IMG/VR virus record: IMGVR_UViG_3300042383_000326
Coordinates: 1 to 20,039 of that record
From: a virus
Reading direction: 5' to 3' (one strand)
Length of the DNA stretch: 20,039 bases
Below the pieces are notes generated by a model. That model saw nothing but the letters and a program-made list of their open reading frames with translations. It did not search any database and was not told the DNA's origin. Shown piece by piece: positions 8,527 through 19,638 of this stretch (the first letter of the stretch is position 1; the number at the start of each line of letters is the position of its first letter). A program made the position numbers and the translations under genes.

Positions 8527-8871
8527 TTACCCTCCGAGGAGTGAACTGCGACCGAGCGCCAAATCCTGCGGGTTGACGCCGGTCGGTCCAGTCAGCATGG
8601 TGCTGGTCGGCCCGCCACCTGCGCCCTCCGCTGCGCCAGCCATGATCTCGCCCATGTTGGGCTGCCGGCGGTTGGCTGCGGCCATAGCCTGGGCGCTGCG
8701 TCGCTGCTGCGATGCTGCCTGTGCGCTCGCCTGCGTTTGCGCTTGCCGCTGCTCGCCAAGCGCCTGCTTCTGGGCCTCATCGGCACGCTCGCCTGAATAG
8801 ATCGCGTACCCCGTTCCTGCCGCCGCTGCCGTTGCTGCCGCCACTGCGGCGATGGTGCTGATCGCTGCCAT
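8527..8871 (-). CDS. small Ala/Gln-rich protein with N-terminal hydrophobic segment
   Basis: This 114-residue protein starts MAAISTIAAVAAATAAAAGT, a hydrophobic Ala-rich helix. A long Gln/Ala helix follows (ADEAQKQALGEQRQAQTQAS), then a Gly/Pro-rich tail. Short proteins of this kind are common between terminase and portal in podoviruses; they are unnamed and may be minor virion or ejection-associated proteins, though this is inference. AAGGAG lies 8 bases before the ATG. The gene stops 2 bases before the portal start. Low complexity makes family assignment unreliable, but coding is supported by the start site, the packing and the neighbours. Confidence 0.6.
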   Translation of the reverse strand: MAAISTIAAVAAATAAAAGTGYAIYSGERADEAQKQALGEQRQAQTQASAQAASQQRRSAQAMAAANRRQPNMGEIMAGAAEGAGGGPTSTMLTGPTGVNPQDLALGRSSLLGG

Positions 8872-11429: not shown

Positions 11430-11714
11430 GTCCTTGGTGCTGTTTATTCCGAAATCTTGGATAGTTGCCGCCCACACTAGTCGCGGTGTGCCCGGACCCA
11501 TCCACCGTGCCTCGATTTCGTCGGTAACGAAGCACCGTGCTTCGACCTGGGTCATGCCCTGATCGTCGCGTAAGCGTGCTGCGATCATGTCCGCGCTGTA
11601 GACGACCACGGGCGGCCCTGCCTCGCCGGCGCGGGGGTAGTGCACGCCGAGGATGCAGTCATCGAGGCCCGCCAGCAGCACCTGCTTCCCCGACGACTTG
11701 CGCTTGCGTGCCAT
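11427..11714 (-). CDS. conserved small phage protein (GLDDC..VVYSADMI..L family), unknown function
   Basis: The ATG at 11714 (MARKRKSSGKQVLLAGLDDC) is chosen because the frame upstream of it is a shadow of the replication gene; this gives 95 residues. The pattern GLDD.ILG, PPVVVYSADMIAARL, DQGMTQVEA and an ending with W(M)GPGTP recalls a small family common in phages and plasmids (GLDdaivG...VYd.d.ii..L..dGMt.eEA...G..TP). That family has no established function known to me. It overlaps the end of the DUF1376 gene by 56 bases in another frame. No strong Shine-Dalgarno precedes the start, so coupling to the upstream gene is probable. Confidence 0.7.
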   Translation of the reverse strand: MARKRKSSGKQVLLAGLDDCILGVHYPRAGEAGPPVVVYSADMIAARLRDDQGMTQVEARCFVTDEIEARWMGPGTPRLVWAATIQDFGINSTKD

Positions 11715-12558
11715 GACCGGGATTGTACGGGGCGGCGAGTCGTGCCCTCCACACGGCTGCGATGTTCCTGACGCTCTTGTCGGCGAGATCGTTGCGCACG
11801 ACTGTCGCTGGCGATGGTCCGCCGTCAAGGTACTCAACTAGCCAGCGGCGGTAGAGCAATTCGGAGTCTCCGTCGGACAGTCCGTTCGTGCGCAGTTTGG
11901 CGAGCGTGAGCTCGCGCTCCTGCTCAACCTTGGCGGTCATCACGGCTATCCCGTCGGCAATGACCTCGTCCTCGGTCACAAGCCTCTGCTGTCCGTCCTC
12001 CCCCTTGACATACCAATCCCCCGCCCCCGCCCGTTCGACCCGTGTCCGCCAGGCCGGCTCACGCAGCAACAGACGTCGCATCGCGTCTCGAGCAAGGGGG
12101 GTAGGGGGGGTTTTGATTCTCTTTGACTCTGATTCTGATTCTGACTCTGAATGGCATTGCGTGGGCAATGCTCGCGCATTGCTCGCGCATTGCGTCGGCA
12201 TTGCGGGCGCAGTGCGTGCGCATGGTTCTGGGCGCTTGTGACGGGCTGCCGCAGCACGCCTCGCGTTGTTGCTAACTGCTTCTGCCTTCTCGACTTGCGT
12301 GCTACGGACGCTCTCCAACTTGGCGTTGCGGAGCCGACCGTCCTCGTCGCTGCGCTTGAACTTGTCTCGGATTATCAGCCAGTCACCTTCCTGCATCTGC
12401 ATTGCGCCCGCAATGCGTGCGCATTGCTCAATGCAGTCTGGCACGCTGCCGTTGTCCCATTGGAACACCAGCAGGCTGATGTAGATCCCGCGCTGGGCCG
12501 CCGACATGTGGCCGACCGACGCTGCCCATTCTTTCGTATACAGGGGAAACCAATGCAT
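11659..12558 (-). CDS. DUF1376/YdaU-like replication protein
   Basis: The ATG at 12558 (MHWFPLYTKEWAASVGHMSA) is preferred over one at 12591 because GGAAGG lies 7 bases upstream; this gives 299 residues. The N-terminal ~90 residues show the DUF1376 (YdaU) pattern: a W.PLY..EW opening, MSAAQRGIYISLLVFQWDNG and IRDKF. This domain is common in phage replication proteins occupying the lambda O position. A low-complexity linker (about residues 105-145) includes (SE)4 and PPTP. The C-terminal part has LLYRRWLVEYLDGG and a region that may bind partners. The linker DNA carries an 11-bp repeat array, so the gene may contain the origin it acts on. Initiator function is by family and context; the helicase partner is not in the window. 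Confidence 0.75.
   Translation of the reverse strand: MHWFPLYTKEWAASVGHMSAAQRGIYISLLVFQWDNGSVPDCIEQCARIAGAMQMQEGDWLIIRDKFKRSDEDGRLRNAKLESVRSTQVEKAEAVSNNARRAAAARHKRPEPCARTAPAMPTQCASNARALPTQCHSESESESESKRIKTPPTPLARDAMRRLLLREPAWRTRVERAGAGDWYVKGEDGQQRLVTEDEVIADGIAVMTAKVEQERELTLAKLRTNGLSDGDSELLYRRWLVEYLDGGPSPATVVRNDLADKSVRNIAAVWRARLAAPYNPGHGTQAQVVGEAGAAGGPR
12096..12110. repeat. G6-TA-G7 tract inside the replication gene
   Basis: GGGGGG-TA-GGGGGGG on the plus strand encodes PPTP on the minus strand of the DUF1376 gene. It immediately borders the low-G+C hexamer repeats. Such runs can form G-rich structures or be prone to slippage; here both runs keep the frame open. Confidence 0.6.
12115..12148. 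repeat. GAYTCT hexamer repeats, low-G+C tract (possible unwinding element)
   Basis: GATTCT at 12115 is followed after four bases by four hexamers GACTCT, GATTCT, GATTCT, GACTCT (12125-12148). On the minus strand they encode alternating Ser and Glu. The tract is well below the local G+C and strongly strand-biased (pyrimidine-rich on plus), and lies 5 bases from the 11-bp repeat array. In lambda an A+T-rich, strand-biased segment next to the O-binding iterons is the unwinding site; the same is inferred here. Confidence 0.55.
12154..12230. repeat. seven-unit 11-bp tandem repeat (iteron-like array, candidate replication origin)
   Basis: Units start at 12154, 12165, 12176, 12187, 12198, 12209 and 12220, exactly 11 bases apart, each beginning GCATTGC or a near variant (GCAATGC, GCAGTGC; the last is degenerate, GCATGGT). 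Because 11 is not a multiple of 3, the repeat is kept at DNA level and not as a protein repeat, although it lies within the DUF1376 coding frame. One unit per helical turn suits cooperative protein binding. Position and context resemble the lambda origin inside gene O. Confidence 0.75.
12399..12431. repeat. second cluster of the 11-bp GCATTGC repeat (three units)
   Basis: Units at 12399 (GCATTGC), 12410 (GCAATGC) and 12421 (GCATTGC) have the same core and the same 11-base spacing as the main array 180 bases away. They lie in the conserved N-terminal part of the DUF1376 gene. Confidence 0.6.
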
Positions 12559-12571
12559 GATTCTGCCTTCC

Positions 12572-12676
12572 GTCCGCCATGTAGCGGACAAATGAAATCC
12601 TGAGGAGACAGCGGGGAGCGAGTGCGAGCTGACCCGCTGCCCCCCAGGTTGGGTTGTTGAGCGTTTGCACTCGCTC
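12572..12676 (-). promoter_or_regulatory. inverted repeats in the leader of the DUF1376 gene
   Basis: Three perfect inverted repeats are seen. GTCCGC/GCGGAC at 12572-12577 and 12584-12589 lies just upstream of the Shine-Dalgarno. CAGCGGG/CCCGCTG is at 12609-12615 and 12633-12639. GAGCGAGTGC/GCACTCGCTC is at 12616-12625 and 12667-12676. The second and third are interleaved, so in RNA they would be alternatives to each other. No T-run follows, so these are not simple terminators. Confidence 0.4.
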
Positions 12677-12750
12677 TGGGGTCACAGTCTAGCGTGTCAT
12701 TTCATCGGCTGTTGGAGCAAATGCACTACACATCTGCACATCTGTATTCG

Positions 12751-12790
12751 CTTCACGCCTATTCACGCATCTTCACGCCTATTCACGCCA
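12751..12790. repeat. four-unit 10-bp direct repeat (NTTCACGCNN)
   Basis: CTTCACGCCT, ATTCACGCAT, CTTCACGCCT and ATTCACGCCA follow one another without gaps, so the array also reads as a 20-bp repeat in two copies. It is intergenic and at one unit per helical turn, which suits repeated binding of a regulator or initiator. It ends 10 bases before the possible -35 at 12801. Confidence 0.7.
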
Positions 12791-12800
12791 ATGCCTGCGA

Positions 12801-12828
12801 TTGCCGAAACGCATACAAACTGTATGCT
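12801..12828 (+). promoter_or_regulatory. possible rightward promoter overlapped by a 17-bp palindrome
   Basis: TTGCCG (12801-12806), a 16-base spacer and TATGCT (12823-12828) make a moderate sigma-70-like promoter. GCATACA-AAC-TGTATGC (12811-12827) is a perfect 7-bp inverted repeat over the spacer and -10, a typical place for a repressor. It resembles the operator-like site at 15897-15912. It would serve the gene at 12990. Confidence 0.45.
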
Positions 12829-12989
12829 CATCGGTAGTTATGAGCATGGGACACAACGCCTGAGCGTCTGTCCCCGGCGGCAGGTTCCCGTTACCCCAAT
12901 GTTCCGGCGCTGCGGCGTACCTCGCGGCCTTCAGGCAGCACCCATGTCGGCAGTCGAATCCGACGTCACCGCGCCCCTATCCTACCGCC

Positions 12990-13529
12990 ATGCGTCACTG
13001 CAACCTGCCGTACCACATCTATGTCAATGTGAACAATGTCGCGCTCGGGCCCGAAATGCCAGCCGGCACGACTCGCGGCATCTTGCACGGCATCTACTGC
13101 CGGCCCGGACAGGCCATCATGGGACACGTCCTGCTCGAGAGCGGAGCGCACTGGTCTGGGATGCTGTGGCATCTGATGAGCACCGGGTACACGTTCATGG
13201 AGCAGCCGATGACGTTGCAGCCGTGGGGAGCGATGGGCGAGGACATTGAGGCTTGGCATTGTCACTACCTCGATGGACTAGTTTGCTCGTCAGTTCGTGG
13301 CCCAGCATTGCACGGTCGTCACACGGGGATCATGGTGGATTGGCGGGATGGGTTTAGCCGGTACCCAGACGAGCACAAACCGTTGAACATGGTGCACCTC
13401 AACGGCGGCCAGTTCGCGCTGCTGCCCAACAACCACCTGCTGTTCAACGACAAGCACCTCGTGCGCCCGTCGGCGCGTACGAGCATCGCCAACTACCGGC
13501 GCAACTCCGAGGTCATTTGGGGTCCGTGA
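12990..13529 (+). CDS. conserved phage protein of unknown function, rightward
   Basis: A 179-residue protein starting MRHCNLPYHIYVNVNNVALG with GPEMPAGTTRGILHGIYCRP and GHVLLESGAHWSGMLWHLM in its first half, and NMVHLNGGQFALLPNNHLLF near the end. This reads as a well-ordered single-domain protein with many His and Trp, not a chance frame. I recall similar short proteins in other podoviruses, but no function is known to me. No clear Shine-Dalgarno precedes the ATG and no other start lies in frame nearby. It is the only rightward gene between two leftward blocks and overlaps the opposing gene's end by 17 bases. Confidence 0.7.
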   Translation: MRHCNLPYHIYVNVNNVALGPEMPAGTTRGILHGIYCRPGQAIMGHVLLESGAHWSGMLWHLMSTGYTFMEQPMTLQPWGAMGEDIEAWHCHYLDGLVCSSVRGPALHGRHTGIMVDWRDGFSRYPDEHKPLNMVHLNGGQFALLPNNHLLFNDKHLVRPSARTSIANYRRNSEVIWGP

Positions 13530-17509: not shown

Positions 17510-17690
17510 AAAACAACTGAAGGAACGCCTGCGGAAGGCAGCCGTTGACTTCCCTCGCAATCGGATTGACCCGTGGATGGACGAGTTGCTTACCGCTGCG
17601 GTAACTCGTATCGAAGACCTTGAGCAGCACAATCAAATCCTGCAACGCAGGATCATGGAGATGCGCGATGAGCTACGAACCAAAGCCTGA
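17496..17690 (+). CDS. small coiled-coil protein, unknown function
   Basis: The GTG at 17496 is preferred because AAGGAG (17483-17488) lies 7 bases before it; the ATG at 17490 is only 1 base from that site. The 64 residues read GALEKQLKERLRKAAVDFPR, then DPWMDELLTAAVTRIEDLEQ HNQILQRRIMEMRDELRTKA, a long amphipathic helix with heptad spacing, so probably a coiled-coil dimer. In lytic cassettes small proteins after a lysozyme can be spanins or holins, but no membrane segment or lipobox is present, which argues against both. It overlaps the lysozyme-like gene by 14 bases. Confidence 0.62.
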   Translation: MGALEKQLKERLRKAAVDFPRNRIDPWMDELLTAAVTRIEDLEQHNQILQRRIMEMRDELRTKA

Positions 17691-17925
17691 CACCGGAGCG
17701 ATGTTCCAGAACCGCAAGCAGCACGACCGCCAGCCTGATTGGCGCGGGAACTGCATGGTCAATGGAGTGGTCATGGAGATCGCCGCTTGGACGAAGACCA
17801 CGAGCAAGGGCACTGAGATGCTTTCGCTGAAGTTCAGCCTGCCGCGTGAGCGCGAGGATGCACCAGCAGCGCCGGCCAAGCAGGCTAATCACCGTCCGCT
17901 CCCCGATACCGACATCCCGTTCTGA
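17668..17925 (+). CDS. small protein with SSB-like acidic C-terminal tip
   Basis: The ATG at 17668 has GGAG 7 bases upstream; 85 residues. The body (MFQNRKQHDRQPDWRGNCMV, NGVVMEIAAWTKTTSKGTEM LSLKF) follows a pattern of small phage proteins with a beta-barrel-like core (F.N..K....PDWRG......G......AW.K.....G...LSLKF). The end is PDTDIPF, almost the DDDIPF tip by which bacterial SSB recruits replication and repair enzymes. It may bind single-stranded DNA or mimic SSB to draw host enzymes. It lies in the same operon as RusA and before ERF, which supports a DNA-processing role. The pattern is clear, the role is inferred. Confidence 0.68.
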   Translation: MSYEPKPDTGAMFQNRKQHDRQPDWRGNCMVNGVVMEIAAWTKTTSKGTEMLSLKFSLPREREDAPAAPAKQANHRPLPDTDIPF

Positions 17926-19050: not shown

Positions 19051-19352
19051 TGCCAGAGACTGACGAGGACATCATCGACCGCATTGATGTCCAGCCGTTC
19101 GTCAGCCCGATCTTGGCCGAGGCACGCGAGGAAATCATCTACCTGCGAAACGAGATGGCGCTCCTCATGCGAGGGTGCAACGAGCTCACGCAAAGACTCC
19201 TGACCTATGAGCGAACGCCTGATCGAATTCACCGTGCCGGGTATGGCAGCACCGCAAGGGAGCAAGCGCTTGGTGCGCCTGCGGAACGGTCGGACGGTGA
19301 TGCTGGACGCATGCCAGCGCCTGAAGTCGTGGAGAGCCGCCGTCGCCTATGA
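19050..19352 (+). CDS. small acidic protein, 3' half overlapping rusA
   Basis: The ATG at 19050 overlaps the previous stop (TGATG). The first ~52 residues look real: MPETDEDIIDRIDVQPFVSP, then ILAEAREEIIYLRNEMALLM, a helical type common in phage early operons. After residue ~53 the frame runs 146 bases into the RusA-like gene, giving Arg/Ala/Pro-rich sequence (HRAGYGSTAREQALGAPAER) of shadow type. Either the natural stop was lost or the overlap is real. I keep the open frame and mark the C-terminal half as doubtful. Confidence 0.5.
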   Translation: MPETDEDIIDRIDVQPFVSPILAEAREEIIYLRNEMALLMRGCNELTQRLLTYERTPDRIHRAGYGSTAREQALGAPAERSDGDAGRMPAPEVVESRRRL

Positions 19353-19638
19353 GGCTGGGCGTGCCTGGGTCGGGCCGCCGGCTGAGGCTGCCTGCACCAT
19401 CAGCGCCGAGTTCGTGTTTGAGCGGCCCAAGAGTCACTGGCGCAAGGCTGGCGAACTAACCAAGACCGCACCGCTGCACCCCGGTAAGCCTGACATAGAC
19501 AAGCTGTGCCGCGCACTGCTAGACGGTCTGACCGGGGTTGTGATGGTCGATGACTCGCAAGTCATTTGGCTGAACGCACATAAGCGTTACGGGTCGCAGT
19601 CAGAAACCTTTGTCACGATTTCCTACGCAGCCCGTTGA
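19207..19638 (+). CDS. RusA-like Holliday junction resolvase
   Basis: 143 residues with the RusA pattern: FTVPGMAAPQGSKRLVRL near the start, KSWRAAVAYEA, then PGKPDIDKLCRALLDGLTGV V with D96, D98 and D106, and MVDDSQVIWL with D115/D116. These Asp residues match the metal-binding active site of RusA, which cuts four-way DNA junctions in phage recombination and removes branches before packaging. The start ATG at 19207 lies within the previous frame and has a weak ribosome site; Met13 is a less likely alternative. It is the last gene of the operon, just before the ERF promoter. Confidence 0.88.
   Translation: MSERLIEFTVPGMAAPQGSKRLVRLRNGRTVMLDACQRLKSWRAAVAYEAGRAWVGPPAEAACTISAEFVFERPKSHWRKAGELTKTAPLHPGKPDIDKLCRALLDGLTGVVMVDDSQVIWLNAHKRYGSQSETFVTISYAAR

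Follow-up and report, generated by a model that had tools for sequence, protein, structure and literature searches.

In bacteriophage lambda, the origin iterons (39034–39118) lie inside the initiator gene O, right after the part coding for its N-terminal domain (residues 22–115). This origin is described as having four 19-bp iterons (PMC3985674), with an AT-rich element adjoining them (PMC3349717). A related arrangement is described for gp38/oriL of SPP1: the direct repeats that this initiator binds are part of the gene encoding it, and an AT-rich element for unwinding is present (PMC6316719). Further, the Rac prophage of E. coli is described as having an active origin, oriJ (PMC3945230). In the literature we found no treatment of a DUF1376 origin; coverage of subscription papers was thin, and an older account of oriJ or of a DUF1376 origin may exist.

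Here, we analyse a DUF1376 gene from a viral DNA stretch of 20,039 bases (the window). Read from its sequence, the gene quite probably codes for an initiator of phage replication and has the origin inside itself. Its N-terminal domain, the iterons, a low-G+C tract and the C-terminal part follow one another along the gene (Table 1), an order which the preliminary description of the locus had likened to lambda and which holds here. The differences from lambda are nevertheless clear. First, lambda O matches PF04492 only, whereas the window protein matches only DUF1376 (PF07120) and not PF04492; thus, the defining domain of the lambda O family is absent. Second, the window gene has many palindromic cores of about 7 bp on an 11-bp period as against the four 19-bp iterons described for lambda (PMC3985674). 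Third, unlike lambda, it has a second array in the domain-coding part, as does a minority of other DUF1376 genes. Its way of working looks like that of lambda O, though membership of that family fails on the domain. SPP1 gp38 is a different protein from a different host group, and the window gene is likened to it by description, not by sequence.

The E. coli Rac protein YdaU shares the N-terminal DUF1376 domain (92.2 bits). Its linker-coding DNA has repeats around GATGTTCAA(ACA), spaced by 33, 33 and 12 bp, together with a ATGTTCAAACA pair that is complementary throughout; self-match exceeds that of synonymous shuffles at lags 23 (p 0.001) and 33 (p 0.011), but not at lag 12 (p 0.296). An AT-rich tract and a C-run are present as in the window gene, from which YdaU differs in its repeat sequence and in its lambda-O-like C-terminal part (phrog_678). 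The linker repeats of YdaU may perhaps be oriJ. A separate observation concerns the ydaU of E. coli 442/2 "Rac" (L056, 1228–2016): the C-terminal part of its product is the same as in K-12 YdaU, and the N-terminus lacks DUF1376. Its linker has its own inverted repeat, GTAACGCTG/CAGCGTTAC, and the repeats accompanying this N-terminus gave no significant lag.

Table 1. Features of the DUF1376 gene, in positions of the window
Feature	Position	Strand	Remarks
DUF1376 gene	11659..12591	(-)	310 aa from TTG; likely alternative start is ATG at 12558
DUF1376 domain	12313..12555	(-)	Pfam match and AF2 model
Second array	12399..12427	none	three exact GCAWTGC, 11 bp apart, within DUF1376-domain-coding DNA
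Main array	12154..12226	none	seven 11-bp units: five match GCAWTGC exactly, a sixth has one mismatch, the last is weak
Low-G+C hexamer tract	12112..12150	(-)	G-poor on gene strand; candidate unwinding element
C7-TA-C6 run	12096..12110	(-)	directly after tract; right cassette edge about here
C-terminal part	11659..12110	(-)	kept across both cassette types
Exchangeable cassette	12111..12591	(-)	about 480 bp: domain, both arrays, tract

The DUF1376 protein of the window

The window protein matches PF07120 with 38.9 bits, above the curated cut-off of 30.1, over residues 13–93; its PHROG matches, phrog_3992 and phrog_9327, are both annotated as "primosomal protein". The AF2 model of the domain (pLDDT 93, pTM 0.81) has four helices, short strands and a long last helix. 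By our own reading of this confidently predicted model, the domain would have a winged-helix-like fold. The model agrees well with predicted DUF1376 proteins of other phages; at E ≤ 0.001 there were 32 matches, most of them either DUF1376 proteins or without a name. Its agreement with solved winged-helix replication proteins is weak: all matches are below Z 8, the best being 5.3, with ORC2 at about 5, DnaD-N (2vn2) at 4.5, and 4pql and 4pt7 at 4.3 and 3.9 (RepA-type about 4), and unrelated structures score alike. A sequence search of the PDB with a five-sequence DUF1376 alignment returned no matches.

The C-terminal part, which presumably touches the helicase or its loader, matched no Pfam family. 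Its AF2 model (pLDDT 77, from a shallow alignment) matched no solved structure, and a search for its relatives reached none beyond the known family, with all 39 loci retrieved belonging to that family by identity (74–97%). Within the window the gene is located near the terminase genes. Elsewhere in the window are a probable single-strand DNA-binding protein (17620–17925; phrog_18154, E 2.4e-7) and a RusA resolvase (19207–19638). Direct repeats (12729–12789) immediately precede the DUF1376 gene, close to where the exchanged cassette described below has its left edge, with CACATCTG present twice and TTCACGC on a 10-bp period as detected by TRF; these are possibly an operator.

Two arrays of palindromic cores in one gene

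The preliminary description had reported seven units spaced by exactly 11 bases in the linker-coding part of the gene. The spacing is indeed exact, with starts at 12154, 12165, 12176, 12187, 12198, 12209 and 12220. The units read, in order, GCATTGC, GCAATGC, GCATTGC, GCATTGC, GCATTGC, GCAGTGC and GCATGGT; thus, five are exact copies of GCAWTGC, the sixth departs from it at one position, and the last can be counted only with doubt. As the core is palindromic around a central A/T, the orientation of the array is ambiguous. The linker array is real, but a second one had been overlooked, with core starts at 12399, 12410 and 12421. The main array is the top 11-bp-periodic place of the whole window (26/33 matches, from 12163); the second array (19/33, from 12384) ties with a place at 8687 for second.

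GCAWTGC occurs 13 times in the window against 5.07 expected, a count that none of 100 shuffles reached. Eight of these copies, forming six 11-spaced pairs, are in the DUF1376 gene. Permuting its codons 5000 times gave at most 3 copies and 1 pair. The same number of synonymous shuffles gave a mean of 2.06 copies, indicating that the protein itself favours some cores, and at most 7 copies and 4 pairs. No shuffle of either kind matched the copies and pairs of the gene. Thus, neither codon usage nor the protein accounts for the arrays, and the constraint acts on the DNA. The earlier case for such a constraint, that the period is not a multiple of 3, was insufficient by itself because 33 bp corresponds to an 11-residue protein repeat; the conclusion is upheld by synonymous shuffling and, across the family, by the signal at lag 11 and the reading frames in which the motif occurs (below).

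The strand-biased, low-G+C hexamer tract noted earlier was recovered by TRF, with a period of 6 at 12124–12150. In base composition, 12112–12153 is 36% G+C, compared to 53–68% across 500-bp intervals. The tract follows the linker array along the gene and is itself followed by the C7-TA-C6 run. This sidedness extends to the family: in 61 of 80 genes the G-poorest 36 nt begins 0–60 nt 3′ of the last iteron start, as against 13 for the C-poorest. Runs of the form C4+..TA..C4+ shortly after the tract were also seen in 9 of the 199 DUF1376 linkers surveyed below (0.1 expected); besides the window, loci with this run are L041, L043, L143, L175, L200, L292, L337, L374 and L406. Several C-runs are followed by a G-run with which they could form a hairpin, such C-run/G-run pairs being found in 10 of 199 linkers against 4.3 expected.

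Exchange of a cassette among close relatives

Among the 39 related viral loci, we analysed the 30 with complete or nearly complete genes, leaving out 9 partial ones. These fall evenly into two types. Fifteen have the window-type domain, and in them both GCAWTGC arrays are kept with the spacing of the window, except that L010 is missing one core. The eight cores together comprise 56 positions, of which 2 vary across 14 distinct window-type cassettes, both of them palindrome centres, compared to 45 of 424 positions elsewhere. The other 15 have a different DUF1376 domain (32.8 bits in L025) and no GCAWTGC in the gene. In this sister allele the repeat expected of homologues is thus lacking, but another palindromic repeat, AGGGTGGCTCAAGCMACCCT, takes the same two places, namely the domain-coding part and the linker. 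L025 has one copy and a half of AGGGTGGCTCAAGCMACCCT in the domain-coding part, whereas its linker has three full copies and a half at distances of 23 and 34 bp; in all 15 second-type genes, four or five of the five L025 positions fit the AGGGTGGCTCAAGCMACCCT pattern. An ACAACC-type tract replaces the hexamer tract in the four second-type loci whose sequence was inspected.

Comparison of L025, L028 and L037 with the window locates the edges of the exchange. Their DNA identity to the window is 66% over the first 60 nt of the gene, 41–51% from about +60 to +480, and mostly 85–100% from +480 on, except for a variable patch near +600 to +780. Upstream of the gene, identity is mostly low to about −180 and, beyond about −240, mostly 73–100%, a gap in L028 excepted. 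As the drop lies between better conserved flanks, the domain, the repeats and the tract have been exchanged as one cassette. This co-exchange is strong evidence for recognition of the repeats by the domain, though not conclusive, because physical closeness alone could keep the two together. The variable patch, in C-terminal coding DNA (window 11811–11991), has two alleles of its own, with 48% versus 86–96% identity to the window at +660; these assort independently of cassette type, with L015 and L037 having the same allele despite their differing cassettes.

Recurrence across the DUF1376 family

The survey drew on four scans (the best 80 of 585, the best 80 of 143, the best 80 of 591, and 37 of 37 loci), and its sample is accordingly not a random one. 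The 277 loci minus L248 were combined with K-12 and 14 named phages into a set of 291 genes, from which removal of 8 short ones and of redundant ones left 199. Another 80 Rac-like loci were left out. Domain, linker and C-terminal parts were cut at fixed codons (85 and 185), which left 198 linkers long enough for the per-gene test. Since loci L217–L253 (19 non-redundant genes) were partly chosen by their linker peptide, we also ran a set omitting them, comprising 180 genes and 179 tested linkers. As a positive control, the same repeat test was applied to lambda O and returned the lags expected from its annotated iterons, namely 20 and 44.

Among lags 3–45, the 199 linkers showed their highest mean self-match at lag 11: 0.316, against 0.262 for codon shuffles (z 25.9) and 0.292 for synonymous shuffles (z 19.1). 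Lag 22 was also raised; raised values at lags 6, 7 and 12 probably come from the tract. The C-terminal control gave no signal at lag 11 (0.266 versus 0.263). Per gene, at the 0.01 level, 89 of 198 linkers were significant at lag 11 (50 when judged against synonymous shuffles) compared to 4 of 168 C-terminal parts; the domain parts gave 38 of 199 (23 by synonymous shuffling). Linkers significant at lags 14, 22, 23, 28 and 34 numbered 51, 45, 33, 20 and 14, respectively, and those at the other twelve lags between 1 and 5. Lags 14 and 28 reflect the tract. At p ≤ 0.005, 114 of 198 linkers were significant at one of lags 11, 14, 22, 23 or 28, compared to 12 at five control lags.

In the reduced set, lag 11 was significant in 80 of 179 linkers, compared to 4 of 173 flanks upstream; the two downstream flanks gave 0 of 168 and 3 of 164. 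The expectation that homologues would keep an 11-bp repeat is thus borne out in these 80, but many DUF1376 linkers have no significant array, and more than half of those surveyed lack a significant 11-bp one. No array was visible in the DUF1376 genes of Bradyrhizobium ppBeUSDA76-2 and Komagataeibacter phiKX1. In PfDIW6 and Lbo-JY16, both of the best 11-bp-periodic places of the genome lie inside the DUF1376 gene, as does the best one in IFTN2; P19250A and PGB have their strongest 11-bp-periodic place outside that gene. Cumulative GC skew, proposed earlier as an origin marker, was uninformative: its extremes lie away from the gene in all five whole phage genomes analysed and likewise in the window, which has only a local minimum at 12751–13250, just upstream of the gene.

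The linkers differ in repeat sequence. GCAWTGC is present at least twice in 54 of the 199, where 0.3 would be expected; the corresponding numbers are 26 for CGTTSAAC-like repeats (0.55 expected) and 9 for TGTTSAAC (0.95 expected). Simple counting showed no enrichment of a loose AACCC/GGGTT class (31, with 25.75 expected), which is not relied on, and 79 of the 199 genes fall in no repeat class. The GCAWTGC pairs lie mainly 11–12, 22–24 and 33–36 bp apart, with 32 pairs at 11 bp, 16 at 12, 22 at 22, 20 at 23, 7 at 24 and none at 13–21; for NGTTSAAC, the corresponding pairs number 24 at 11 bp, 14 at 22 and 8 at 33. The motif uses at least two reading frames in 50 of 55 GCAWTGC genes and in 23 of 26 NGTTSAAC genes. 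Spacing and frame use together point to helical phasing of DNA sites, not to a peptide repeat.

The type of repeat in the linker also extends to the DNA coding for the domain. Genes typed as GCAWTGC by their linker have 24 copies of this motif in their domain DNA compared to a synonymous expectation of 7.8 (16 of 54 genes), and those typed as GTTSAAC have 16 copies of theirs compared to 5.0 (9 of 28 genes). The motif of the other type is not raised (0 versus 1.4 and 2 versus 1.2 expected). All 24 GCAWTGC copies and 14 of the 16 GTTSAAC copies lie at codons 55–74. On a tree of one domain class (66 genes, of which 13 untyped ones were left out), the repeat types of 53 genes require 11 changes; 500 label shuffles required 25.4 on average and never fewer than 18. 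This test used three labels, including the loose AACCC/GGGTT class and a widened GCAWTGC class. Thus, the repeat type follows the DUF1376 domain. Because phylogeny confounds the most informative alignment columns, we claim no specificity positions from them.

Genomic contexts

The C-terminal parts in YdaU, IFTN2, PfDIW6 and Lbo-JY16 match O-like initiators, the first three through phrog_678. Next after the DUF1376 gene, PfDIW6 has a DnaC-like gene and Lbo-JY16 a DnaB-like one; the gene in this place is annotated as an endonuclease in IFTN2 and a cell wall hydrolase in P19250A. No DnaB_C or IstB gene was found in six records of the window family, all of which are possibly incomplete. In Rhizobium phage RHph_TM3_3_3 (L054, 2271–2729), the gene after the DUF1376 gene has the DnaA C-terminal DNA-binding domain PF08299, which would be unusual company for the initiator of a phage; a gene with a like annotation is present in RHph_N28_2.

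A proposed model of DUF1376 proteins as initiators, and its alternatives

On our best reading, DUF1376 proteins would be initiators that bind an origin within their own gene, a lambda-O-like design on another domain family. That the protein binds the cores, that the tract opens, that a helicase is recruited and that replication starts here are the steps that we infer. The winged-helix-like N-terminal domain would bind the palindromic GCAWTGC cores; as these are about one helical turn apart, several protein units could align on one face of the DNA. Units bound to the array of the linker, and probably others bound to the smaller one in the domain part, would form a wrapped or looped complex that strains and opens the adjacent G-poor tract of 6-bp repeats. 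The C-terminal part might then recruit the host helicase or its loader.

An unlikely but more serious competitor is that the arrays are operators through which the DUF1376 protein regulates transcription of its own operon, with replication starting elsewhere. A winged-helix-like domain with palindromic sites would suit a repressor as well as an initiator. However, the exact cores of the window sit 165–438 nt inside the gene, away from the promoter; the G-poor repeat tract occupies one fixed side of the iterons in the 61 of 80 genes noted above; and several relatives have C-terminal parts in common with O-like initiators.

A considerably less probable proposal is that the repeats are sites for another protein, such as a packaging, partition or host factor, and lie in this gene by chance. 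The proximity of the gene to the terminase genes in the window would fit this, but in PfDIW6, IFTN2, P19250A and PGB it is not beside them. Moreover, the repeat sequence changes along with the DUF1376 domain, for which a third protein would not account. That the repeats are instead a by-product of a low-complexity linker, in which 11-residue peptide duplications copied the DNA, is scarcely credible: the window array also repeats at 33 bp, and the linker therefore does have an 11-residue repeat, but the motif occupies multiple frames in nearly all GCAWTGC genes with 11, 22, 23 and 12 bp as the commonest spacings, its counts exceed those of synonymous shuffles, and the cores of the window-type cassettes vary only at palindrome centres.

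Implications

Beyond the putative initiator with its own origin, we lean towards a broader view of DUF1376 as a widespread plug-in module for origin recognition. Here, the domain, its own sites in one or two places, and a strand-specific tract of 6- or 7-bp repeats would travel as a cassette of about 480 bp, which is replaceable as a unit and joined to varied C-terminal parts, including the lambda-O type. If this holds, a Pfam domain named for its "unknown function" would gain a function, and sequence alone could suffice to locate the origin in a great many phages and prophages, with oriJ of Rac perhaps among them. The many natural domain–site pairs, including a domain swap, would provide data for a recognition code and would show how recognition evolves in DNA that must also code for protein.
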